From positions 1 to 36,864 of the forward strand of contig JAFUDC010000157.1 of NCBI GenBank assembly GCA_017459345.1: a DNA stretch of 36,864 nucleotides. The letters run 5' to 3'. Under the pieces are notes generated by a model, which did not search any database, was not told the DNA's origin, and saw only the letters and a list, made by a program, of their open reading frames with translations. Made by a program: the position numbers and the translations under genes. The stretch's first letter is position 1; every line of letters starts with the position of its first letter. This DNA is from Eubacterium sp. Lineage in GTDB: Bacteria > Bacillota > Clostridia > Lachnospirales > Lachnospiraceae. Positions 17,528-31,376 of this stretch are shown piece by piece.

Positions 17528-18250
17528 CTACCGTCTCCTGTCTGCTTCCCTCAGCTTTTTCAGTATTTTTTTCTCCATCCTCGACACCTGTACCTGGGAT
17601 ATTCCCATTTCCCCTGCGAGAACTGTCTGGGTTTTCCCCTGAAAATATCGCTGCCTGATCAGGGATTGCTCTTCTGCTGTCAATGTCGACAGGAGCTGGT
17701 CCAGATAAAGACGCCTTTCCATATGACCTATTTCATCATGGCTGCTAACCAGTCTGTCCTCCAGACAGATTTCATCCCCGTCTCCCTGATAGATTACCTG
17801 ATGCAGGGATCGAACCTCCTGGCCGGATTCCATTGCCATCAGAATATCTTCGCGGCTCAGATTCAGGCTGCGGGACAGCTCGTCAATAGTTGGCTCCTCC
17901 AGGTCTTCCTTCTTGCAGCGCTCTTTCTCCTTATATATTCTGTAAGAGATTTCCTTCAGAGTCCGGCTCACTTTCATGATCCCGTCATCCCTTATATATC
18001 TTCTGATTTCCCCCATGATCAATGGAACGGCATAGGTGGACAGTCGTACTTCCCTGTCAAAATCAAAGTTGTCGATACATTTGAGCAGTCCGATAGTTCC
18101 AATCTGGAAGAGATCATCAAGGTCGTATCCTCTTCCCTGAAAACGCCTGGCCACACTCCAGATAAGTCCGGCATTCTCCTCCACCAGCTGGCTGCGTGCT
18201 TTGCTGCTTCCTTCTTTAGCCTGTCTGATTAATTCACAGGTCCGCTCCAC
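17528..18250 (-). CDS. sigF: RNA polymerase sporulation sigma factor SigF
   Basis: Forespore-specific sigma factor of 240 residues. Region 2 reads YDLDDLFQIGTIGLLKCIDN with the DNA-melting part TYAVPLIMGEIRRYIRDDG; region 3 is around 110-150; region 4.2 ends with the helix-turn-helix TVLAGEMGISQVQVSRMEK. Assignment to SigF rather than SigG rests on its place directly after spoIIAB. The start is GTG, overlapping the spoIIAB TAG by one base (TAGTG), with a G-rich site GGGGGG upstream. In known systems SpoIIAB holds this factor inactive until SpoIIAA releases it. A terminator follows. Confidence 0.96.
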   Translation of the reverse strand: MERTCELIRQAKEGSSKARSQLVEENAGLIWSVARRFQGRGYDLDDLFQIGTIGLLKCIDNFDFDREVRLSTYAVPLIMGEIRRYIRDDGIMKVSRTLKEISYRIYKEKERCKKEDLEEPTIDELSRSLNLSREDILMAMESGQEVRSLHQVIYQGDGDEICLEDRLVSSHDEIGHMERRLYLDQLLSTLTAEEQSLIRQRYFQGKTQTVLAGEMGISQVQVSRMEKKILKKLREADRRR

Positions 18251-18711
18251 TATCTGCCCCCCATCCTTTTGGTCAGATATACCCTGGTCCCTCGGCCTGG
18301 TTCGCTGATAACTTCAAGATGATCGGAGAAGGCTTCCATAAAGGTAAACCCCATCCCTGACCTTTCCCCGCTGGTATCCGTTGTATAGAGGGGTTCCATG
18401 GATTTTTCGATATCCCTGATTCCGATTCCAAAATCTGTCACGACAACTTTTACCCTTGATTCATCGCGGCTTAGTTCCATCTCAATGTCTCCCTCTGACT
18501 CCGGATAGGCATGCAGGATAGCATTGGTCACTGCCTCTGACACAGCGGTTTTAAAATCCATAAGTTCCTCCAGAGTAGGGTCGGAGACTGCTGCATATGC
18601 CGCTGCCAGCGTCCGGCCGATGCTCTCATTTTCAGGGATACTTAGAAAAGTTAACCGCACAGTATTATGATTCACGGGCTTAGCTCTGGATCCTGTATCT
18701 TCCGCGCTCAT
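18250..18711 (-). CDS. spoIIAB: anti-sigma-F factor/kinase SpoIIAB
   Basis: GHKL-fold serine kinase of 153 residues that binds SigF and phosphorylates SpoIIAA. The ATP-site boxes are visible: N box SEAVTNAILHAYPE, G1 VTDFGIGIRD and G2 SGERSGMGFTFMEAF. It is about ten residues longer than Bacillus SpoIIAB, all at the N-terminus. ATG overlaps the spoIIAA stop as ATGA, which supports this start, although an internal GTG 12 codons later would give the Bacillus-like length. Confidence 0.96.
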   Translation of the reverse strand: MSAEDTGSRAKPVNHNTVRLTFLSIPENESIGRTLAAAYAAVSDPTLEELMDFKTAVSEAVTNAILHAYPESEGDIEMELSRDESRVKVVVTDFGIGIRDIEKSMEPLYTTDTSGERSGMGFTFMEAFSDHLEVISEPGRGTRVYLTKRMGGR

Positions 18712-19043
18712 TCATAGACCTCCTTCATCTCTTCTATCGTATTCAGTATGATAACATGGCTCAAAATCCCGGACATTTCCCACATCCTGCTGATGATGTG
18801 GTTCCCGCCAAAAAGAAAAACTCTGCCGCTTACTATCTCCATCTCCCTGACCCTTCCCAGGATAAGTCCGATTCCTGAGCTGTCCATAAAACTGGTCTCC
18901 GAAAAATCAAATATAATATCTCTGATCAGAGAACGCATAAATTCCATCTCCATCTCTTTCCTGACCTTCTCCGCCTGATAGTGATCAATCTCACGGGGCA
19001 GCCGGACCACCAGACACTGGTGCTTAACATGACAATATCCCAT
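18708..19043 (-). CDS. spoIIAA: anti-sigma-F factor antagonist SpoIIAA
   Basis: STAS-domain protein of 111 residues that, when unphosphorylated, displaces SigF from SpoIIAB. The phosphorylation site motif FMDSSGIGLILGR (52-64) has the conserved Ser56. Length matches the family. The ATG has a near-perfect AGGAGG with 8-base spacing. It is the first gene of the run spoIIAA-spoIIAB-sigF; no clear sigma-H promoter could be placed upstream, but a large hairpin lies at 19097-19143. Confidence 0.96.
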   Translation of the reverse strand: MGYCHVKHQCLVVRLPREIDHYQAEKVRKEMEMEFMRSLIRDIIFDFSETSFMDSSGIGLILGRVREMEIVSGRVFLFGGNHIISRMWEMSGILSHVIILNTIEEMKEVYE

Positions 19044-19217: not shown

Positions 19218-20714
19218 TTATTCTTCCGAATCGTCTGCGTCACCGCCATCATCGCTGTCCCCTGAATCATCTGAATCCTGGGAGCTTTCTGTATCGCTGC
19301 CCCCGTTCTTATGCTTGGCTGCTTCCTCGATGGCATCCTTCTTCTGCAGGTCAAGACCATAATTGGCCGCCTTGCGGATCAGATCCTCATCACCGGAATT
19401 GTTGATGATATCATAGAGGTACGGATAGGCAGTATCTGTATCTCCCAGACGCTTATAACACATGGCAATCAGGTAGAGGGTCTCATAGCTCTTCTCATAC
19501 TTGTAGGAAGCTTCCAGGTCCTTCTTGGCTTCCTCATACTTGTAGGTATCATAGAGAGCCTGGCCGCTCTCATAGAGCTGGGCAGCAGCTCTTGGAGATG
19601 CATTATCCTTCATGGTCTTATAAATCTGTTTGGATGTTTTTGACGGGAGAGAATCTGCATCAATCTTGGAGAGTTCTCCGGCGCACTTCTCATAATCACT
19701 CTGCTCGTATGCCTGGAGAGCCTTCAGGAGACTGTCGTACATGCTGTCCTCTCCATCAGATCCTTCATAAACCTTAAGGCTCTTATTCAGGGACTTGTTC
19801 TTCTTCTCCAGGGAGGCTTTATCATCCTGAAGCTGGGCAATCTCCCCATCCTTCTTGTTGACGGTCTCCTTGTACTCTTTCTTCAGGTTGTTGTAATCCA
19901 CACTGACACCGGCTCTGACACTGGGAATAACCAGCACGAACATGACAATGACACCGATGGCAAGACCAATAAGCATATATACAAACTGCTTCCAGGTCTC
20001 CTTATTGGGATCTTCATAGTGGTCTACCGGCCTCACGTTCCTCAGATTGTCATTATCCTTGGATCTGATCTCTGTCGGAATCTTATCCAGAGATGGAGCC
20101 TTGCCCTCGCCGATCTCAATCAGATAACGGCGGGCTGTGGTATTGTAATTATCCACCGCCAAGGCATTATTCAAATCATTCTTAGCCTCTTCCTTATCTC
20201 CGGCACGCATGTGCAGGAGAGCAAAAAGCAGATGCCCCCTCACAAAATTCGGGGTGAGACTTAAAACCTTCTTGATCTGGATCATAGCCAGATCATCGCT
20301 GCCCTGCTTGGCATAAGAAAGAGCCAGGTTGAACTTCTTGGCAGTCTCATTGATTTCCTCAAAGATTGCAGGATGTTCATCCATCTCCTTAATGTAAAGG
20401 TTAGCCGCGTTCTCCTCCACGTTGTTCAGCCTGGAGCTGATCTGCCACTGGATATAGGCCTTGCCCTTCTCACCCATCTCATTATAGACCAGACCGAGGA
20501 GATTGCGGGCATCCTTATGTGCTTTGTTATAGGTTAATGCCTTTTTAAGCTGTATGATTGCACCGCTCAGATCCCTCATCTGTACCTTCTCAAGACCGAT
20601 GTTGTAGTGATAATTAGCGGTATTATGCGCTTTGGCAATATGCTTGTTGTTAAAACCGCAGCCGGTGCAGAATCCATCCGCACCTACATTACGGCCACAT
20701 CTTATGCATTTCAT
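19218..20714 (-). CDS. membrane-anchored zinc-ribbon and TPR protein
   Basis: Protein of 498 residues with a clear layered plan. Residues 1-20 are a zinc ribbon (Cys3, Cys6, Cys16, Cys19 in MKCIRCGRNV and FCTGCG). About 30-200 are tetratricopeptide-type helical repeats (NIGLEKVQMRDLSGAIIQL, FNLALSYAKQGSDDLAM). One membrane helix spans about 244-265, followed by a coiled coil at 273-316 and a second set of helical repeats at about 330-470. The tail is a Ser/Asp/Glu run. The cytosolic and external repeat domains on one helix suggest a scaffold across the membrane. The start is the ATG with AGGAGG 6 bases upstream, so the upstream ten residues of the open frame are left out. Function is unknown. 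It is preceded 39 bases upstream by a 49-residue protein gene. Confidence 0.88.
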   Translation of the reverse strand: MKCIRCGRNVGADGFCTGCGFNNKHIAKAHNTANYHYNIGLEKVQMRDLSGAIIQLKKALTYNKAHKDARNLLGLVYNEMGEKGKAYIQWQISSRLNNVEENAANLYIKEMDEHPAIFEEINETAKKFNLALSYAKQGSDDLAMIQIKKVLSLTPNFVRGHLLFALLHMRAGDKEEAKNDLNNALAVDNYNTTARRYLIEIGEGKAPSLDKIPTEIRSKDNDNLRNVRPVDHYEDPNKETWKQFVYMLIGLAIGVIVMFVLVIPSVRAGVSVDYNNLKKEYKETVNKKDGEIAQLQDDKASLEKKNKSLNKSLKVYEGSDGEDSMYDSLLKALQAYEQSDYEKCAGELSKIDADSLPSKTSKQIYKTMKDNASPRAAAQLYESGQALYDTYKYEEAKKDLEASYKYEKSYETLYLIAMCYKRLGDTDTAYPYLYDIINNSGDEDLIRKAANYGLDLQKKDAIEEAAKHKNGGSDTESSQDSDDSGDSDDGGDADDSEE

Positions 20715-20753
20715 ATATTTCCTCCTGTATCGCGGAATACTCACAAGCTTCAG

Positions 20754-20992: not shown

Positions 20993-23632
20993 CTAGCGAA
21001 GCTGACTAAGCCGCTCTGCCACCTGCTGAGCCATGGCAGTATATCTGGCCAGCTTCTCCTTCTCTTCTTCCACCTTTGCGGCTGGTGCCTTACTGATAAA
21101 CTTCTCATTGTTCAGCATGCCATTTGCCCGCTTAATCTCTCCTGCCAGACGTTTTTCCTCTTTCTCAAGCCGTGCAATCTCCTTCTCCACATCCACAAGG
21201 TCTGCAAAAGGAATATAGATGACTGCATCCGGAATTACAGTTGACACCGCATCCTCAGCAATACCGGCCTTATCTGCCTGTACATAAACCTCGCTGGCAT
21301 AGCCCAGGGTAGCAAAGAATACCTTGGAATGCTCAAATACTGTGCGAATCTCTTCCTTCCCGGAAACTACATATACTGTGGCCTTGCGGCTGGGCGGAAC
21401 ATTCATATCCGCACGCATGTTTCGGATATTTCTTACTGCAGTCTTAATAATCTCAACTTCATTTTCCTCGGAGCTGAAATTATACTCCGGTCTGTATACC
21501 GGCCAGTCGGAAACCATGATGGATTCCTCTTCATCCTGCATGCTGCAGAAGATCTCCTCTGTAATAAATGGCATGTAGGGATGGAGAAGCTTTAAGGCTG
21601 TAATCAGGACAGTCTTTAAGGTATAGAGGGCTGCTGCCTTGGTCTGGTCCTCGTCATTGTAGAGACGTGGCTTAACCATCTCAATATACCAGTCACAGAA
21701 CTCTTCCCAGATAAAGTCATAGAGCTTGGCCACTGCGATACCCAGATCATAGTTCTCCATGTTCTCTGTGACCTCTGCTGTCAGGGTATTAGCCTTGGAC
21801 AGAATCCACTTATCAGCCGGGGTGAGGTCAGACAGAGTAACACCGGAAAGGTCTGCTTTTTCTATATTCATCAACATGAAACGGGATGCGTTCCATACCT
21901 TATTGGCAAAATTACGGCTGGCAAGAATCTTCTTCTCAGAGAAGCGCATGTCATTACCCGGAGCATTTCCCGTTACAAGGGTAAGACGAAGAGCGTCGGC
22001 ACCGTACTGATCGATCACTTCAAGAGGATCGATGCCATTACCCAGGGACTTGCTCATCTTCCGTCCCAGCTCGTCCCGAACCAGCCCGTGAATGAGAACA
22101 TCTGCAAAAGGAGACTTGCCGGTATGCTCATAGCCGGAGAATACCATACGGATTACCCAGAAGAAAATGATGTCGTATCCCGTTACCAGCACACTGGTGG
22201 GATAGAAGTAGTCAAGATCCTCCGTCTGCTCGGGCCATCCCAGGGTGGAAAACGGCCACAGGGCGCTTGAAAACCAGGTATCCAGCGTGTCCTCATCCTG
22301 ACGAAGATGACTGCATCCACACTTGGGGCAAACCTCCGGCATGGTCTTGCTTACCGTAATCTCCCCGCATTCATCACAATAATATGCCGGTATGCGGTGA
22401 CCCCACCAGAGCTGTCTGGAGATACACCAGTCACGGATATTCTCAAGCCAGTGGAGATAGGTTCGGTCAAAGTGAGCCGGCACGAAGCGGAGCTCACCAT
22501 TCTTTACCGCCTCTATGGCCGGCCTGGCCAGCTCTTCCATCTTAACAAACCACTGCTTCTTAACCATGGGCTCCACCGTAGTGTGGCAGCGGTCATGGGT
22601 TCCTACATTATGATTATGAGCTTCGATGCGGACCAGATAGCCTTCGCTTTCAAGCTGCTTTACGATTTCCTCCCTGGCCTCGTAGCGGTCCATGCCGGCA
22701 AATCTTCCGCCGTTTTCGTTGATGGTGCCATCATCGTTCATGATATTGATTTCCGGCAGGTTATGACGCTTTCCGACCTCAAAGTCATTGGGGTCGTGAG
22801 CCGGTGTGATCTTTACAGCGCCAGTTCCGAACTCCTTATCTACATAGGTATCTGCCACAATCGGAATCTCTCTGTTCATGATCGGGAGAAGGAGCTTCTT
22901 ACCAATCAGATCCCTGTACCTCTCGTCCTCGGGATGAACTGCCACTGCAGTATCTCCCAGCATGGTTTCCGGACGGGTAGTGGCAATCTCTATACACTGG
23001 TCTGTTCCTATAATAGGATAATTGATATGCCAGAAATGTCCGGCCTGATCCTCGTACTCTACCTCTGCATCAGAGATGGATGTCTGGCAGACCGGGCACC
23101 AGTTGATAATGCGGGATCCCCGGTAAATGTATCCCTTATCATGGAGACGGATGAATACCTCCTCTACCGCCCTGGAGCAGCCCTCATCCAGGGTGAACCG
23201 CTCTCTGTCCCAGTCTGCGGAAGATCCCAGCTTCTTTAACTGGCTGACGATACGTCCGCCGTATTCTTCCTTCCACTCCCAGGTTCTTTTCAGGAAGCCT
23301 TCTCTTCCCAGGTCATCCTTCTCAATGCCTTCTTCTTTTAATTTATTGATAACCTTCACTTCTGTGGCAATGCTGGCATGGTCAGTCCCCGGCTGCCACA
23401 GGGCGTTATAGCCCTGCATACGCTTAAAGCGGATCAGGATATCCTGCAGGGTATTATCCAGGGCATGGCCCATGTGAAGCTGTCCGGTTATATTAGGCGG
23501 CGGCATTACAATCGTGAAGGGCTTTCTGCTTCGGTCAACCTCTGCATGAAAGTACTTCTTATCCATCCACTTCTGATAGAGCCTGTCCTCAATCTCTGCA
23601 GGATTATAGGTTTTATTCATCTCTGTCGCCAT
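20993..23632 (-). CDS. valS: valyl-tRNA synthetase
   Basis: Class I synthetase of 879 residues that charges tRNA-Val and edits mischarged Thr. The HIGH signature is in [15 protein letters not shown] (53-56), the editing domain has [11 protein letters not shown], a zinc-type CDECGE...CPKCGC cluster lies near 419-440, and KMSKS is at 525-529. The C-terminus from about 810 is a coiled-coil arm ([18 protein letters not shown]). AGGAGG lies 10 bases before the ATG. Unusually no T-box leader precedes it: only 42 bases separate it from the helical-repeat gene upstream, so it seems to be read from the long operon described below. Confidence 0.97.
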
Positions 23633-23674: not shown

Positions 23675-24556
23675 TCAGAATCCCGTCACAGGATTTATCG
23701 GCAGATTTGTTACCAGCAGGTTCTCATCCATATACAATTCTTTTCGGAAATCTTTCCGAAGCTGTCTGATAAACTGCTTTTTAAGCTGCTCTGCTTCCTC
23801 TGGCCGTTCATGCTCCTTTAAGAAGGAGATCCTTCTCTGCCTGGCAGCATCTCCTGTATTCATATAGGCATCCCGAATTCCGGCATAGCTGTTCTCAAAA
23901 GATTCCAGCACCACTTCAGAGATAGCAAAGCCTGCAATCTCCTCCCGGGCTGCCGGGACACCTTCCGACATGGCCACGATGCAGTAATAATAGAACAGGG
24001 ATTCCTCCGCCCCATTATACTGATAAGCCTTCAGAAAATCTACCTTAGCATCCTCGAAACGGAACAATCTGGCTTTAGCCACCGCCATGTTATGGTGCAC
24101 AGCCCCCTGGACCTCTGACTCCAGAGTCTCAAACTTCAATGATTCTTTGTAGTAAAAGGCAGCCATGGCACTCCGCCCCGCCTCAAGATACATGTCTCCA
24201 ATCCATTTGCACTGCATAGGATAGGGGGTATTTTTTAATTCCCTGTATTCATCCAGGATTCTTCGGATATCCTCCTCGGAATAATAGTTCCCCTCCCGGA
24301 AAAGAGCAGCAAAGTACTTCATCTGATCTCTGTTGGGATCTGTGAGTCTTATCAGCTGCCGGTAAAGCTTGTCAAGCTTCAGCTCATCCCGGATATAGAC
24401 CGCAAGGCCTTCCTCCGGAAGTGTATATAGATAACAGAGCATATGACTGCTCAGGTAATAGCATAATTCCTCATAGGAAAAGATACTTACTCCGGTTTCC
24501 GGAAACCGGTAGGGCCTGGATGCGACCTGACCTGTGCAAACTATCGACTCTTTCAT
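23675..24556 (-). CDS. helical-repeat protein of unknown function
   Basis: Cytoplasmic protein of 293 residues, not recognised. The middle (about 110-230) has TPR-like helical pairs: KWIGDMYLEAGRSAMAAFYY, HHNMAVAKARLFRFEDAKVD and SLFYYYCIVAMSEGV. The first 60 residues, with FSYEELCYYLSSHMLCYL, are distinct. No signal peptide or membrane segment is seen. The start has GGGAGATT 6 bases upstream. It lies 14 bases after the actin/Hsp70-fold gene and 42 bases before valS, and probably works with the two preceding genes. Confidence 0.82.
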   Translation of the reverse strand: MKESIVCTGQVASRPYRFPETGVSIFSYEELCYYLSSHMLCYLYTLPEEGLAVYIRDELKLDKLYRQLIRLTDPNRDQMKYFAALFREGNYYSEEDIRRILDEYRELKNTPYPMQCKWIGDMYLEAGRSAMAAFYYKESLKFETLESEVQGAVHHNMAVAKARLFRFEDAKVDFLKAYQYNGAEESLFYYYCIVAMSEGVPAAREEIAGFAISEVVLESFENSYAGIRDAYMNTGDAARQRRISFLKEHERPEEAEQLKKQFIRQLRKDFRKELYMDENLLVTNLPINPVTGF

Positions 24557-24570
24557 GTCACTAATCTCCC

Positions 24571-25674
24571 TTACGTAATTAATTGAAAAGGAAAAATCGT
24601 CACTTTCCCAGTCGCAGGAAACATGGATCCGAATCCCATATCCGTGATCAGGATCACTCCTGCTGCCTGGGAGGTGAATTCAACCTTGATCCGCAGCCTG
24701 GTAGTTTTAGGCGGCCTGCCCGGCAGGTCCCGGATCTCGCAGGCTGAACACTCTATCTCATTCTCCCTGGAGTTGTGAAAAAAGAACTCAACCTTCTGAC
24801 TCTTATCCATGATGATATCCAGACTGCCTGAGGTATTATACCACTCTTTCCCGATACTGGTAATGGGAACATAGTGGGCTTTTCCGGATTCCTGTGTGAT
24901 CACGCCGATTGTGTGAGAAACCATCTCCGGCCCCTCCATCAGCAGCATTCCATCCTCAATCAGTGCCAGCTCGCCCATTCCCAGAAGGCAGGCTCCATTG
25001 GCATAAAGATTCTGTCCGAGAAAAACTCTTCTCCCTGCGCACATGTAGGTCAGACTCCTCTTCATCCAGCTGCCCTCAAAGCCCTGACCGGTGAGATAGA
25101 TGATATGGGCAGGCTTCCTGACCAGGAACTGCTTCATCATCTTGCTGAAGTTCTGATCAAGTTCCGGATCTCCTTCCTGTATACCGAACTCTTCGGTGTC
25201 AATCTCCTTAAGTATTGCCCGGTAAGCCCTCTGTCTGGCCCGGCGGATCTGCTCCACAAAGATATAAGTAAGCCTGCCTTCCGAGAAATCCAGGAGAAGG
25301 GTATTCCGGTCCCAGACAGACCGCTCCTGATGGAAGACATATTCTGCAAATGCTCTGAATCTGGTGATAATGCTGGTGGCATGAATCTCCTGGAAATCTT
25401 CCGGCAGCTGCTCCTCAAGAGTTTTTCTATTCTCCTGATCCACCCCTTCAAGGGAAATATTCACCTCGTCAAAATCCTCCCAGGTCCGGTTGGCGGACTC
25501 CATATACTGGCGGATTTTAGCCATCCCGCTTGCAATGTATTCTTTTTGTTCATCCGGCTCCAGAGGAAAGATTTCTTCCATCATCTCCCCCTGTCCTTCA
25601 TCGAAAAGAGAAAACTGTGCCGATGTTCTTCCCAGATCGATACCGGCAAATTGTCTGGTTTTGAGTTGTTCCAT
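24571..25674 (-). CDS. actin/Hsp70-fold (ASKHA) protein of unknown function, possibly DUF5716
   Basis: Protein of 367 residues with the sequence marks of an actin-like ATPase fold: phosphate-1 loop FAGIDLGRTSAQFSLF (9-24), a phosphate-2-like strand NTLLLDFSEGRLTYIFV (124-140) and an adenosine-site-like IIYLTGQGFEGSWM (191-204). Phosphate-2 has DFSEGR where active Hsp70s have DLGGGT, so ATP hydrolysis may be weak or lost. From about 240 on it is beta-rich (GVITQESGKAHYVPITS, LRIKVEFTSQAAGVILITD), reminiscent of an Hsp70 substrate-binding segment. I recall adjacent Clostridial families DUF5716/DUF5717 with this look, unverified. The ATG at 25672-25674 has AAGAGG 6 bases upstream; a TTG two codons earlier is rejected. 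It lies between the 1170-residue protein and the helical-repeat gene. Confidence 0.8.
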   Translation of the reverse strand: MEQLKTRQFAGIDLGRTSAQFSLFDEGQGEMMEEIFPLEPDEQKEYIASGMAKIRQYMESANRTWEDFDEVNISLEGVDQENRKTLEEQLPEDFQEIHATSIITRFRAFAEYVFHQERSVWDRNTLLLDFSEGRLTYIFVEQIRRARQRAYRAILKEIDTEEFGIQEGDPELDQNFSKMMKQFLVRKPAHIIYLTGQGFEGSWMKRSLTYMCAGRRVFLGQNLYANGACLLGMGELALIEDGMLLMEGPEMVSHTIGVITQESGKAHYVPITSIGKEWYNTSGSLDIIMDKSQKVEFFFHNSRENEIECSACEIRDLPGRPPKTTRLRIKVEFTSQAAGVILITDMGFGSMFPATGKVTIFPFQLIT

Positions 25675-25696
25675 AAGCAACCTCTTATTCTTTCCG

Positions 25697-28600
25697 TCAC
25701 AGGATCGTCATAAACTGATCCGTAAAAAATGATTTGAGCAGATATTCATCAAGTCCGTCCGCTTCCTCCACTTTCTCCTCCAGATAGTTGAGTTCAAAGA
25801 AACGGCTGTCTTCTCCTTCATATTCAAAAGTTTCAAAGTGTATATCTTCCTCATTCTTCACCGGCTCACCATCAGCCTCCATCCGGTAGTTCACGTGATC
25901 ATCCTGATAAAAATGCAAAGATGTCACATACATACCCGGCAGGATCTCGAGAAGATGCCTCTCTCTGGCTTCTCCCTTTTCTCCGTCAATCTCATAATAG
26001 AGACATACGCTCTTACCGGGACTGCCATGATAGGTGAGGAAGGTCCTCTCGCTGTAATCCGTGGGGAAGGTCAGCCAGTCGGCGTAAACCTGATAAACCG
26101 GCAGATAGAATTCTTCAAGAAGGAATTCATCAACGATGGTCTCCACCGTACCGTGAACCCGCTCATGCCAGTCCTTCTTTTCGGCAAAATAGTACAGGAA
26201 ACGAATCTTGGTTCTTTTATCTCTGATCTTTCCTTTGACTATCTCCTCCCCGATAATCTGATGAATCCTATCTGACAGGACAAGGTCTCCCGTAAGCTCC
26301 CTGTCAGAAATGTATTCCAGATAATCTCCCACCAGGGAATCGGAAGACGCATTCTGATAGAAAGATTCAAATACCGGGAAGACATCTTCAGTATTACTGC
26401 CTGTGAAGATTGACTGAGTCAGGATCTTTTTTTCAAAGTCTGTAGTGGGAAGCTGAAACTTCCCGGCTCTCTCCCATATGGTAAGGAGGTCAATCAGCTC
26501 GCCATCAAAGTGGTTCATCAGATAGGAAAGTGTATCCCGATTATATTTTTTATTGACAAAAGCGGTATAAGCCAGAGACAGGGTGGTCTCATCCATCTTG
26601 CCATCATAATATGATACGCCAAAACTGGCCAGCCTCAGCCTCTTGGCAGCTCCCATAATGCTTGAACCATAGAGTTCAATTCCGAAATATGCATGCTCGA
26701 TCATGCCAACTTCCATATAGTAATCCATCAGGGTTTTGCGGAAGGAAGGGGAGATATTGGAATAATCCGTTTTCTCCAGCCACCTGGCAAGTTCCTTCTT
26801 CTCCTGATGATTCTCATAATAAACCAGAAGCTTCTCCAAAGCTCTTCTGCGCATATAAGGCTGGTAATCCTGGTTAAAGGCAATCCTCTGCAGAACAGGG
26901 AGCACATTCCTGGTCACGGGCTCATCCACCTTATCCGATAAGGTCTGGAGTATCATCTTATTTGCAATATTTTTATATATCCACTCTTCCGGAAGCTGGG
27001 ACAGGGTCAGGAAAGGATTCAGCTCATAGGCAATACCTTTCACATAACGCTGCTCAGCAGAATCCACAAAGTAGATAACTGTCCTGTTATTAATGATTTT
27101 CACATAACAGCTGCCCCCTGATAAGGGTACATAGGTCTCCTCCCCGGTTTCCGGGCTTACGATATATACTCCGATCATATGAGGATTCCTGCAGATAATC
27201 CTGCGGTAAAACAGGACATCACATACAGCCTTGGCATTCTCCGGCTTTAATAGGATCTCCTTCTGGAAGAAGGTATAGAGGAATGCCAGATGTTCATTCA
27301 TACGCCCCTTCAGAAGCTGTTCTTCCACAAATGGGACCATCTTGGAATAGTAGGCGCCATAAACCTCCGCGTAAGCTTCCTTATTCTTCAGAATATTGGT
27401 ATATAAATAGGCCTTCTCCAGAGAGTCAAGGCTGTTGCTGTAGGTAAAATAGATCAGCACCCTCTGGGGAATCTCCTCATACTGGCTGAAGTCCATGCTT
27501 CGGATAAAGAATTCATTGAGGCCGACAATCTTTAAGTTGGACAAAACGGCATGGTAAAAATACTCATGATACTCTTTTCCCACACGGTTACCCTTGATCA
27601 GCAGGGAACAGATTACCTGGAGGAAGAGTTCATCAGGCTCCACTTTATAAAGCTTCTCCGCAATGTAGAAGATAGACCGGCTGTAAAACTTTAGCTTTAA
27701 AGCCAGGCGGGCAAACTGATAAGCTAAGGACATGGAAACAAATCCGTAGCGGACTCCCCAGCGGAAGACACTGATCTCAAAGGGGCCTGCCTCCTCCATA
27801 TAATTGGGGTTCTCATTCAAAATCTCACAGGCTTCAAAATACAGCAGACAGCTGTTATTACCTGCCTGAAAAAGCTGCTTTATGGTATCATACTGCAGTC
27901 TTTTATTATAAACATACTCTCTGTCAAGATAAATCAGCATCCAGAGAGCCTCTGCTTTTCGGTCAGAATTCTCATAGAATCTGCGGATGGCTGTCACTGC
28001 TTCTCCAATAGCCTCCGGAGTCCGGTTGGCCATGGCCTTAAGATACAGCAGATAATGGGCTCCCAGGGGAGAAAAGGGGGTCTGCCTGTCATATTCAATC
28101 AGCTCGTTTAAGAGATCCTTGGCTTCATCGGCAGACTCTTCCATCAGCAGCAGATGCGTCAGGTAGAGCTTCCACTTCATATCTCCCGTCAGAAAGATGA
28201 GATCATCCAGGACAAGATGAGACTCCTGGGAGAAATCTTCAAACCCTATGCTTCCGGTTCTGAAGTAAAGATAGTTGTGCATAAGCTCAGCCTTCTGCCT
28301 CTTGACCCGAAACTCCTTTTCTCTTTCTCTTTTTTCGACATCACCGGCTCCCCACCAGTCTACCGGAATCAGGATATCCTGCCGGATGGTAGAAATATGA
28401 ATGATGTCATTACCGATGGCCGGAATACGGTTTCTCCTGATCTCAAGAACAAACTTTCCATCCTGAAAATCTTCACTGTTAAAGCGGTCTGCAGATAGCC
28501 GGACCTGCTTCTTCTCACTGTAGATACGGCCTTCGATATATCCGGGTTCAGACAGGGTAAGCTGCAAGGAGGCGGAGTCAGTTCCGGCAGCAAGAGTTAT

Positions 28601-29209
28601 GCCCTCTTCTTCGGTCACAAGCTCTGTCATCTCCTTATAGCCTGAAGCAGTCAGGAATTCTTCCAGGATCAGCTGCCTTGACCTGCTCTTCATCAGGCTG
28701 TGATACATGGCCTTCTGTTCCGGTTCCCCTTTGAGAAAGACTTCGGCAAAGTTCGGCAGGAAGAAAAGCTCTCTGGCCTCCTGAGGATTCTTCCTGTACA
28801 GGTCTGCAAATTCAGTCATATCCCTGATCAGGCCCATGGAGGTGGAGGCACAGTTTTTCACAACTCTGATCCTGTAAGGGATATTGAATTCGCCCCCATT
28901 GGTAAGAATGGCAAAATCTCCCTCAAATTCACTGCCTGCGGTAGCCAGCTTTCCTTTAAAATAATATACGATCTCCTGCTTCAATCCGGATATCTTCGGC
29001 TGTTCAATCCCAATTTTATCATTGGTGGAATAGACATATCCATTTACAGGCACCTGGTTCTCGCTTGACACAACAAATGAACCGCGGTACACTTTCCCTT
29101 CCTCAATCTCCAGATCCAGATTATCTGTGGAGATCTGTACCTTCGGGCGTTTCATGATATTATAATCTTTTTCCTGTGCTTTATTATCTTTCACCTTATA
29201 TACCACCAA
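25697..29209 (-). CDS. very large helical-repeat protein of unknown function, possibly DUF5717
   Basis: Cytoplasmic protein of up to 1170 residues with no signal peptide or membrane helix. Residues about 20-120 and 205-290 are two beta-sandwich-like domains (LEIEEGKVYRGSFVVSSEN; SLQLTLSEPGYIEGRIYSEK). The bulk from about 300 to 1020 is alpha-helical solenoid, with Tyr-rich helices such as HYLLYLKAMANRTPEAIGEA and ERAGKFQLPTTDF. The last 120 residues return to beta structure. The N-terminus is uncertain: the open frame begins at a TTG (29209), with a GTG at 29194 preceded by GGTGG and an ATG 18 codons in as alternatives. It starts 7 bases after the protease gene and is followed 22 bases later by the actin/Hsp70-fold gene. 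A scaffold or chaperone-like role is only a guess. Confidence 0.82.
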   Translation of the reverse strand: MVVYKVKDNKAQEKDYNIMKRPKVQISTDNLDLEIEEGKVYRGSFVVSSENQVPVNGYVYSTNDKIGIEQPKISGLKQEIVYYFKGKLATAGSEFEGDFAILTNGGEFNIPYRIRVVKNCASTSMGLIRDMTEFADLYRKNPQEARELFFLPNFAEVFLKGEPEQKAMYHSLMKSRSRQLILEEFLTASGYKEMTELVTEEEGITLAAGTDSASLQLTLSEPGYIEGRIYSEKKQVRLSADRFNSEDFQDGKFVLEIRRNRIPAIGNDIIHISTIRQDILIPVDWWGAGDVEKREREKEFRVKRQKAELMHNYLYFRTGSIGFEDFSQESHLVLDDLIFLTGDMKWKLYLTHLLLMEESADEAKDLLNELIEYDRQTPFSPLGAHYLLYLKAMANRTPEAIGEAVTAIRRFYENSDRKAEALWMLIYLDREYVYNKRLQYDTIKQLFQAGNNSCLLYFEACEILNENPNYMEEAGPFEISVFRWGVRYGFVSMSLAYQFARLALKLKFYSRSIFYIAEKLYKVEPDELFLQVICSLLIKGNRVGKEYHEYFYHAVLSNLKIVGLNEFFIRSMDFSQYEEIPQRVLIYFTYSNSLDSLEKAYLYTNILKNKEAYAEVYGAYYSKMVPFVEEQLLKGRMNEHLAFLYTFFQKEILLKPENAKAVCDVLFYRRIICRNPHMIGVYIVSPETGEETYVPLSGGSCYVKIINNRTVIYFVDSAEQRYVKGIAYELNPFLTLSQLPEEWIYKNIANKMILQTLSDKVDEPVTRNVLPVLQRIAFNQDYQPYMRRRALEKLLVYYENHQEKKELARWLEKTDYSNISPSFRKTLMDYYMEVGMIEHAYFGIELYGSSIMGAAKRLRLASFGVSYYDGKMDETTLSLAYTAFVNKKYNRDTLSYLMNHFDGELIDLLTIWERAGKFQLPTTDFEKKILTQSIFTGSNTEDVFPVFESFYQNASSDSLVGDYLEYISDRELTGDLVLSDRIHQIIGEEIVKGKIRDKRTKIRFLYYFAEKKDWHERVHGTVETIVDEFLLEEFYLPVYQVYADWLTFPTDYSERTFLTYHGSPGKSVCLYYEIDGEKGEARERHLLEILPGMYVTSLHFYQDDHVNYRMEADGEPVKNEEDIHFETFEYEGEDSRFFELNYLEEKVEEADGLDEYLLKSFFTDQFMTIL

Positions 29210-29216
29210 TCTGTCT

Positions 29217-31376
29217 TTATCTCATCCTGACCTTTTTTACGGAGGACCAGGCAGAGTAATTATTCTTCTTTCCGCTGCTGTTTACAGCTCTGACCTGATA
29301 ATAGCAATACTTATATCGAAGGTGTTTAATCTGTACTTTCGGCTTGACTGACCTGATTTTCCTGGCCTTTGTCATCTTCCTTGCGGAAGACAGGCGGATC
29401 TCATAGCCGGTTGCTTTTCTGCTCTTCTTCCAGCTTATAGATAAACTGCTCATGGACTTCTTTTTCGCCGTCAGTTTGCTGACCGGCTTCATGCAGAGCA
29501 GTTCTTTCTCATTGCTCCCCTCGCCATAGATACCATATCTGCCCGCCTTGACCATGTAGGTGTAGCTTTTGCCACCGGTTACATGCCTGTCTGTATAACT
29601 TCTTTTTCCGGATGGGACAGTTGCGATCTTATGATATGCTCCGTCCCCTTTTTTCCGGTATATAGTATAATTATTTGCTTTCTTAGTTTTTTTCCATCTG
29701 ATTTCAAGGCCATCTTTGACGTTTTTAACCTTAGACAGCCTGACCTTACCCACAACCGGCTTTACCGTCTGACCGGGGTAGCGGATTCCTCCGGAAAAAA
29801 GCCTGCTCATATCCGGGCAGCCCCAGCCAAAGTAATTATCCTTACCCTTGCTTCCAAGATCTACTGCCAGGGACTTCAGCTGGTTAACCACACCTTTCAC
29901 CGAGAGATTCTTCTGCATCATCTTGATATAGCAGACAGCTGCCGTCACATGGGGAGCAGCCATGGAAGTTCCTGTCATATAATAATATGTTCTTCCTTTT
30001 GGCCCGGCACTGATGACATCTGTACCCGGCGCCGCAAAATCAATGGTGCTGCCATAGTTTGAGTAATGTACATATTTCCCTTTTTCAGTATCATAATAGC
30101 CGCCTCTGCTATTATCCTCATTGATTGCACCTACCGTAATGGGAATGTCTGTATTGGCGGGATAAACTTTTTTCACATTAGTTCCACTGTTTCCTGCGGC
30201 CACACAGATGGGAATCCCCAGATAGTAGGATGTCTTTATCACATCATCAAAGATTGCCGTATATCCTCTTGGAATATTCTCGATACCCATGCTCATATTG
30301 ATCACGGACACTTTATTCTTAATTGCATAGCGAAGGGCATTCCTGATGGCAAATGTATTGCCCTTCCCGGAGGAATTCACCACCTTAAGCATGACAATCT
30401 GCACATTATCGGGGGTGGCATCTGCAATTATGCCTGCCACATGGCTTCCATGGCCCTCCGAGTCTGAGATATTCCTGGTGTTGGACCCCACAAAACTCCT
30501 GCTCAAAGAGGAAATGCGTCCTCCTGCGAACATGGGATGAGATGTGTTGACTCCGGAATCAATAACCGCGGCAGTAATCTTATCATGATAACCGTAGTAG
30601 GGCGCCTGGGTCTTCAGGTAATCCATACCCATATACCTGCTGCCCCAGGATAAACATTTGCCCGGATCGGGAGTACTTCCACCGAGCTCCCCCTGGGTAG
30701 ATTCCATCACATCCCCGGCGTAGAATATCTGGTCAACAAAACACCGGCTGCTTCCATAGCTTTTGCTGGCTGCCTCGTAAGCTTTCTTTGTTTCTTCCTC
30801 TGTTTCAAACCGGAGGATGCTTTCATGATCCTCCATATTATAAATAATACTTGATGCCAAATAGGCATCTTCCGGAACGATATCTTCGATGATCAATGTC
30901 CTGGTCTGATAAGGTGCAGTTACTGTGTAATCTCCCGTGGACTCCTCCTCCACCTCATAGATGGTATTCTCTTCCTTTTCTTCCAGAAAGCTTTCCACAG
31001 AAGAACCGGAGGCAAGAATCTGCTCTGCCTCTGCCTGATTCACCTTAAACTCCCGGGTGAAGCTGTCTTCCTTCCCATCTATCATGACCATGGCGGAATC
31101 CGGATCAATGGTCATACTGGCAAAATAATCCTCCTCCCAGTTTTCGGCCATAGCTGCGGAAAGCTCCTCATAATCGGAAACTTCAGACACTTCTGCTTCC
31201 TCCCGGCTCGGGGACCGTGAATCCTGTCTGCCGGTGTTCACAGCAGTTTGTTCTTCCTGATTCTGCCCGCCCGTTCCTGCTGCATATACAGCTGCCGGGC
31301 TGCAGGCCAGCAGGCATATTAAAACTGCTGTATAGAGAAACTGCTGCCAAATGCTATGTATGTTATTAATATTCAT
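29217..31376 (-). CDS. secreted subtilisin-like serine protease (S8) with fibronectin-type repeats
   Basis: Extracellular protease of 719 residues. A signal peptide covers about 1-33; LLAC at 22-25 could also act as a lipobox. A propeptide-like acidic region runs to about 240. The S8 catalytic residues are Asp273 in AAVIDSGVNTSHP, His309 in SEGHGSHVAGI, the oxyanion Asn396 in VAAGNSGTN and Ser471 in GTSMAAPHVTAA. After about 545 come two fibronectin type III-like beta domains (VKDGLEIRWKKTKKANNYTI; SMSSLSISWKKSRKATGYEI) with a very basic composition, suited to binding the cell wall. GGAGG lies 6 bases before the ATG. The first 11 bases overlap the end of dus, and the 1170-residue gene follows after 7 bases. 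Confidence 0.93.
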   Translation of the reverse strand: MNINNIHSIWQQFLYTAVLICLLACSPAAVYAAGTGGQNQEEQTAVNTGRQDSRSPSREEAEVSEVSDYEELSAAMAENWEEDYFASMTIDPDSAMVMIDGKEDSFTREFKVNQAEAEQILASGSSVESFLEEKEENTIYEVEEESTGDYTVTAPYQTRTLIIEDIVPEDAYLASSIIYNMEDHESILRFETEEETKKAYEAASKSYGSSRCFVDQIFYAGDVMESTQGELGGSTPDPGKCLSWGSRYMGMDYLKTQAPYYGYHDKITAAVIDSGVNTSHPMFAGGRISSLSRSFVGSNTRNISDSEGHGSHVAGIIADATPDNVQIVMLKVVNSSGKGNTFAIRNALRYAIKNKVSVINMSMGIENIPRGYTAIFDDVIKTSYYLGIPICVAAGNSGTNVKKVYPANTDIPITVGAINEDNSRGGYYDTEKGKYVHYSNYGSTIDFAAPGTDVISAGPKGRTYYYMTGTSMAAPHVTAAVCYIKMMQKNLSVKGVVNQLKSLAVDLGSKGKDNYFGWGCPDMSRLFSGGIRYPGQTVKPVVGKVRLSKVKNVKDGLEIRWKKTKKANNYTIYRKKGDGAYHKIATVPSGKRSYTDRHVTGGKSYTYMVKAGRYGIYGEGSNEKELLCMKPVSKLTAKKKSMSSLSISWKKSRKATGYEIRLSSARKMTKARKIRSVKPKVQIKHLRYKYCYYQVRAVNSSGKKNNYSAWSSVKKVRMR

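Follow-up and report, generated by a model that had tools for sequence, protein, structure and literature searches.

We analysed a window of 36,864 nt from Eubacterium sp. (GCA_017459345.1, contig JAFUDC010000157.1; family Lachnospiraceae), in which three adjacent minus-strand genes code for a DUF5717 protein (D), a DUF5716 protein (A) and a tetratricopeptide repeat (TPR) protein (T). In many relatives, these genes are joined by a fourth, coding for a membrane-hairpin coiled-coil protein (C). We propose, with a probability of roughly 0.6, that this module is an ATPase-free core retained from an order-specific locus encoding several Hsp70 proteins, and that it acts as a holdase or scaffold. Computation gave the Hsp70 ancestry of A, the loss of its catalytic residues and lid, the conservation of the operon and the orthology of the loci; from these, we infer the reduction, the existence of a complex and its role. 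Both the link between DUF5716 and Hsp70 and the multi-Hsp70 locus are new here. No description of this locus was found in the searchable literature, whose coverage excludes most subscription papers, and the sections of PMC7159879, PMC11090510 and PMC11019930 that bear on it come nearest. The one paper in it that names DUF5716 or DUF5717 is, judging from its title, a study on cancer.

DUF5716 as a divergent, lidless Hsp70

The gene for A (24571..25674, minus strand; ORF list, Pfam, profile comparison and model) encodes 367 residues from its ATG codon, or 369 in its longest reading, which starts at a TTG codon at 25680. A matches PF18980 (1e-74; 251.7 bits vs a cut-off of 34.7) and D matches PF18984 (5e-206, 686.7 bits) and PF18983 (2e-51, 175.6 bits; cut-off 25). 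These Pfam matches above the curated cut-offs bear out the two DUF assignments made in an earlier, sequence-only reading of this DNA. The two proteins are thus members of families whose Pfam descriptions give no function.

Profile comparison with hhalign paired DUF5716 with the Hsp70 family PF00012 at 95.5% (E-value 1.5e-8) over 388 columns, spanning both the nucleotide-binding domain (NBD) and the beta part of the substrate-binding domain (SBD-beta), vs 11.0% over 97 columns for MreB. A DUF5716 profile (A1) also matched DnaK (4rtf) at 2.5e-4 in two colinear stretches. The predicted model of A is a folded two-domain protein, with an NBD at residues ~6-247 and an SBD-beta at ~250-367. In fold, it corresponds to an actin-type NBD followed by a beta-sandwich SBD, as in Hsp70, and its Foldseek matches include chains of the ribosome-associated complex (RAC; Ssz1). 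Membership in the actin, MreB or ROK families was rejected on the basis of the profile comparison, although the NBD alone is similar in fold to all three. The sequence-only reading had proposed an actin/Hsp70 fold for A. The fold is present, and the Hsp70 core emerges from the predicted model, the Foldseek search and the profiles, but the SBD-beta following the NBD makes it specifically that of Hsp70, not of actin or MreB.

The ATPase residues of Hsp70, which we take to be K70, E171, T199 and D201 in E. coli numbering, are nearly all lost in DUF5716: in an alignment of very divergent rows, they were found in 0, 2, 2 and 0 of the 95 aligned rows, respectively. The altered phosphate-2 loop noticed earlier, DFSEGR (residues 129-134; 25273..25290, minus strand), is confirmed and lies opposite the GGGT loop of Hsp70 in the alignment. 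Moreover, the aligned part of DUF5716 ends shortly past SBD-beta, and the alpha-helical lid (SBD-alpha) is missing. A is thus a divergent, lidless Hsp70 that has lost most of its phosphate-binding and catalytic residues. Because these residues are nearly all gone, DUF5716 is, judging from its sequence, a descendant of Hsp70 and not a working Hsp70 ATPase. The protein of the window shows one more stage of decay, in that an internal piece of the NBD present in most relatives (the IPT...WyfGeeA stretch) is missing from it.

A conserved operon and its multi-Hsp70 counterpart in sister families

We determined the distribution of the module in 150 Lachnospiraceae genomes, one per genus, 126 of which have a completeness of ≥90% and a contamination of ≤5%. 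PF18980 was detected in 145 of the 150 (123 of the 126 better-quality genomes), with a single match per genome in all but two positive ones, and in none of 14 control genomes. PF18984 was found in 147 genomes, in a few of them in several pieces; only G029 and G091 lack both families. PF18980 was detected in 5/398 genomes of a phylum sample and PF18984 over its cut-off in 10/291 genomes of a class sample, all of them Lachnospiraceae, these two samples containing few other members of the order. Beyond Lachnospiraceae, all relatives found in the samples searched belong to other families of this order. A single DUF5717 match outside the order (G265; 8e-5, under the cut-off), in a protein that looks HD-domain-like by eye, was taken as a chance match.

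Gene maps were made with a crude ORF caller for 41 loci, i.e. the window and 40 genera picked from genomes with a match, the most divergent included. All 41 loci contain D, and in 40 of them A and T, separate or fused, come next. The exception, L060, has a shadow ORF chosen in place of A, and PF18980 marks A at that very place. A and T form a single ORF in 5/41 loci, each half matching its own profile. In the best 80 of 571 confirmed stretches of a named genome collection, D was found in 79, A in 80, T in 79 and C in 75 loci; wherever D, A and T occur together (78 loci), they lie on one strand and in this order. The median gaps in these loci are 21 (D-A), 19 (A-T) and 18 bases (T-C). In the window, the D-A and A-T gaps are 22 and 14 bases, and the ORF list reproduced the three adjacent genes as first described. 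The D-A-T operon is therefore a core feature of Lachnospiraceae, and the neighbourhood is not due to chance. The initial description of a three-gene module holds for D, A and T, but it is incomplete, as C often joins them (64 of the 150 genera) and the module looks like a reduced form of a larger, multi-Hsp70 locus.

This larger locus came from an order-wide search, in which PF18980 matched 59/116 genomes, 11 of Lachnospiraceae and 48 of 13 other families, often with two ORFs of about 500-560 residues per genome. We mapped the loci of 20 of those 48 genomes, from nine families (hereafter sister loci). The genes run in the order D, Hsp70 a, X, Hsp70 b, Hsp70 c, Hsp70 d, T and sometimes C. D is mostly split into two genes (a single gene in L256, and a 1006-residue form in L261 and L262), and the Hsp70s measure ~558 (a), 472-542 (b, DUF5716-like), ~545 (c) and 690-735 residues (d). 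Over the 20 loci, D was found in 16, a in 16, X in 18, b in 19, c in 19, d in 16, T in 16 and C in 3. The set from D to T is complete in 14 loci of six families; those of L251, L254, L260, L265 and L268 are incomplete, some lying at contig ends or being interrupted by other ORFs. X, a protein of 279-645 residues and mostly far longer than usual GrpE, belongs to the GrpE family in the three of 18 that were scanned (PF01025; 1.4e-14, 1.2e-10 and 5.4e-12), and in all three d proteins scanned, SBD-beta is followed by a VWA domain.

The catalytic residues that we checked are intact in c (19/19), d (16/16) and a (16/17, the sole exception being a piece of the L250 d protein mislabelled by the script). 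They are lost in b, with K70, T199 and D201 conserved in 0/19 each and D201 replaced by R in all 19. The medians of 12 (a), 16 (b) and 24 (c) residues after SBD-beta, vs 149.5 in Hsp70 controls, indicate from sequence length that these three proteins have no room for an alpha lid. The b protein of L249 scores over the cut-off for both PF18980 and PF00012 and matches DnaK over most of its length (4e-10), that of L250 only for PF18980 and that of L262 for neither. No significant match was obtained with phmmer for A of the window or b of L250. In L250 (G836), d is split into two overlapping frames, not counted as d above, T lies in two ORFs and the GrpE protein is short; this state is possibly a half-way stage of reduction, or else an assembly error.

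Gene order links the two types of loci. In L056 and L060 of Lachnospiraceae, D-A-T-C lies between a divergent aminotransferase gene and valS, and in L262, of another family, the same two genes enclose D-a-X-b-c-d-T-C. valS also lies 3' of C in L250, and T adjoins it in the window. It is found at most five genes downstream in 12/41 family loci and 2/20 sister loci, and the divergent aminotransferase gene is next upstream in 13/41 and 1/20, respectively. In our trees, b and DUF5716 fall on one side of a branch with a support of 100, and DUF5716 joins the b protein of L250 with supports of 98 and 100. The DUF5716 locus is orthologous to the multi-Hsp70 locus of the sister families.

Hsp70s a, c and d and X were found neither in the 41 family loci, the part of those genomes that was searched, nor among the Hsp70 matches of the window's genome. 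The latter encodes DnaK and two other Hsp70s; for these two, the eight top-scoring BLAST matches in the set compared are Hsp70s from outside the cluster. The genes of those two (566 and 622 residues; L269, C29) share one region, the first lying directly behind that of a 1095-residue TPR protein, and so form an Hsp70 neighbourhood distinct from the D-A-T locus.

These differences are most simply explained if Lachnospiraceae lost a, X, c and d, which we consider most likely. As the sister loci hold intact Hsp70s and GrpE around an already dead, DUF5716-type Hsp70, the family would have kept the ATPase-free core. The opposite direction, in which a short D-A-T-C operon is ancestral and the sister families inserted three Hsp70s and GrpE, appears clearly improbable. 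C and flanking genes are common to short and full loci and no outgroup is at hand, so that either direction is conceivable. However, the full set occurs in 14 loci of six other families, and DUF5716 is nested next to b of G836 (f210), a genome that keeps a, c, GrpE and, in two frames, d. Insertion would also need two events, because the extra genes flank b on both sides, and a dead Hsp70 with the features of b is most easily derived from an active partner set.

Partner proteins and possible function

D (25697..29209, minus strand; ORF list, Pfam and AF2) is an ORF of 1170 residues with a TTG start. Its AF2 model (pLDDT 82.3, pTM 0.57) shows two Ig domains of the PapD/MSP/ASH type (residues 23-118 and 195-289), then TPR-like helical repeats, a beta insert, a second helical stretch and C-terminal beta strands, the fold matches resting on alignment rows that barely test the residues past 289. 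The beta domains and long helical solenoid first proposed for it thus reappear in the model. The first 18 residues have a pLDDT <50 and a purine-rich stretch precedes the ATG codon at 29155; therefore, D probably starts there and has 1152 residues. Of the lengths first given, those of A and T stand, and that of D only as an ORF.

T (23675..24556, minus strand) has 293 residues, in which a conserved N-terminal region precedes TPR repeats. The protein alone gives weak TPR matches (7e-4), under the Pfam cut-off, and its family profile matches TPR proteins of the PDB from an E-value of 2e-6, in agreement with the helical-repeat protein foreseen from the sequence. A weak extra match to the T profile (0.008) was found in one of 15 genomes. 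The 1095-residue TPR protein mentioned above (5e-11 with the T profile) was taken as a general TPR match rather than a paralogue of T. C is a coiled-coil protein with two hydrophobic stretches mid-protein in the member examined (alignment of 13 sequences). In the named-collection loci, C passes a crude hydrophobicity threshold in 75/75 members, D in 5/79, A in 21/80 and T in 0/79. As the model of A is a folded two-domain protein, buried strands are the most likely reason for its passing the threshold. D, A and T are acidic in these loci (median pI 5.1-5.2).

These features suggest how the module might work. A, as a dead, lidless Hsp70, would offer an open SBD-beta without ATP control and probably binds T directly, D would be a giant scaffold contributing its Ig and solenoid surfaces, and C, where present, would tie the complex to the membrane. 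In the sister families, the lidless but catalytically intact a, c and d would act together with a GrpE-type exchange factor, these four components having been lost in Lachnospiraceae. The remaining complex would probably be an ATP-independent holdase or scaffold, in which SBD-beta, the PapD-like Ig domains and the TPR groove would each offer a client a surface for binding peptides or strands. Peptide binding and release are much faster in a lidless DnaK, as described in part of PMC7083937; thus, in the full locus, several Hsp70s that bind weakly and quickly may act together, and the reduced locus may serve as a holdase or scaffold. The chaperone or scaffold flavour of the sequence-only reading agrees with this proposed role. 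We put forward more tentatively, at somewhat less than even odds, that the order builds a single, partly membrane-tethered machine made of three working lidless Hsp70s, a dead one, a DUF5717 scaffold and its own GrpE, which Lachnospiraceae run without the ATPase subunits as an ATP-free chaperone core in nearly all genera.

Several observations weigh against our proposal. None of 26 single DUF5716 members matched PF00012 at an E-value of 0.1, a narrower DUF5716 profile (A3) had no match in the PDB, and only two members from the family loci reach the Hsp70 profile (1e-4 and 3e-4). The best NCBIfam match of A in the window is the ROK regulator NagC (5e-4, residues 8-84, far under the cut-off), and the residue counts given above depend on the alignment of highly divergent sequences. 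The long branches of dead proteins may attract each other in the tree, and both flanking landmarks occur together in just one of the 20 sister loci. C is scarce in those loci (3/20), and its narrow profile (A6) has no match in the window's genome. Lastly, no J domain was found in the proteins scanned, seven from the window and ten from the L249 and L262 clusters, a search that did not extend to the rest of the genome.

Other functions can be considered for such a set of proteins. The complex might regulate the housekeeping DnaK in the manner of Ssz1 or Hsp110 instead of being a holdase of its own, which we find rather unlikely. Ssz1 resembles A in being a lidless Hsp70 made of NBD and SBD-beta, without an ATP cycle and in need of a stable partner; it binds ATP without hydrolysing it (parts of PMC7083937), and DnaK and two other Hsp70s are available in the window's genome. 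In contrast, most phosphate-binding residues are missing from DUF5716, which is encoded beside DUF5717 and TPR proteins, whereas Ssz1 partners a J-domain protein and acts on ribosomes. No J-domain or exchange-factor gene was seen among D, A, T and the scanned neighbours in the window, and the acidity of the three proteins gives no sign of a ribosome-binding surface. The sister locus is itself reminiscent of the DnaK-GrpE system in its intact Hsp70 ATPase residues and GrpE-family protein. It differs in that as many as four Hsp70 paralogues are encoded together, none of them with the alpha lid and one (d) with a VWA domain, that GrpE is mostly far longer, and that a giant DUF5717 protein accompanies them; no J-domain gene was seen in the proteins scanned.

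The giant Ig/solenoid protein D, with its ASH/MSP-like domains, and the membrane coiled-coil partner C of many relatives could also form a purely structural, cytoskeleton-like scaffold or filament, an option raised in the sequence-only reading as well. This appears improbable, as A has an Hsp70-type SBD-beta domain and its nearest relatives are Hsp70s, not MreB; nothing was found in favour of filaments, at which no direct test was aimed. A conflict or defence system is by far the least probable alternative. Hsp70-like units, GrpE, TPR and VWA proteins are likewise combined in the neighbourhoods of GAP1-N2 GTPases, which co-encode Hsp70, GrpE and TPR proteins in Firmicutes (PMC7159879, in part), and CnuD of the CoCoNuTs is a degenerate Hsp70-like NBD/SBD unit joined with helical repeats (PMC11090510, in part). 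However, the same portions of these papers define the former by a GTPase and GAP1, with FNIII proteins fused to DnaJ or TPR, and place CnuD in McrBC-type restriction operons, whereas the DUF5716 locus is a core operon present almost universally. The ten cluster proteins scanned from L249 and L262 contain no GTPase, GAP1, McrB or nuclease family. Likewise, Pfam scans of proteins from the window, L249, L250 and L262 revealed no GTPase or GAP1 family, the flanks of the other loci not all having been scanned, and no McrB or McrC was seen in the window and sister cluster proteins scanned. We rejected a defence or mobile system because D-A-T is present in nearly every genus, mostly with one match each, in a conserved order and a partly conserved place.

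If the ATPase-free core proposed here is correct, a dead Hsp70 is at the heart of a lineage-specific core complex in one of the commonest families of gut bacteria. In the sister locus, Hsp70 would be used in a new manner, with several lidless paralogues and a private exchange factor on one scaffold, and the intact and stripped versions would amount to a natural experiment on the contribution of an Hsp70 that has no ATP cycle. The proposal also provides a concrete hypothesis for gene families that lack an assigned function and are found in ~97% of the sampled Lachnospiraceae genera.

Neighbouring genes in the window

The minus-strand order in the window is dus, S8 peptidase, D, A, T and valS. 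The valS gene (20993..23632, minus strand; Pfam) is a flanking landmark outside the system, also found 3' of the locus in L250 and L262. The S8 subtilase gene (29217-31376, minus strand) adjoins D upstream, and its product has an fn3 domain and, by eye, a signal-peptide-like start. As the upstream neighbour varies among the 41 loci, we judged that it probably does not belong to the module. Further along the minus strand, at 17528-19043, three short genes look by eye like a SpoIIAA/AB/SigF set (anti-sigma antagonist, anti-sigma kinase and sigma factor). Between them and valS, at 19218-20744 (minus strand), lies a gene for another TPR protein (Pfam), with a zinc-ribbon-like start and a membrane span by eye, whose cluster is present in 7 of the 41 loci, the window counted.
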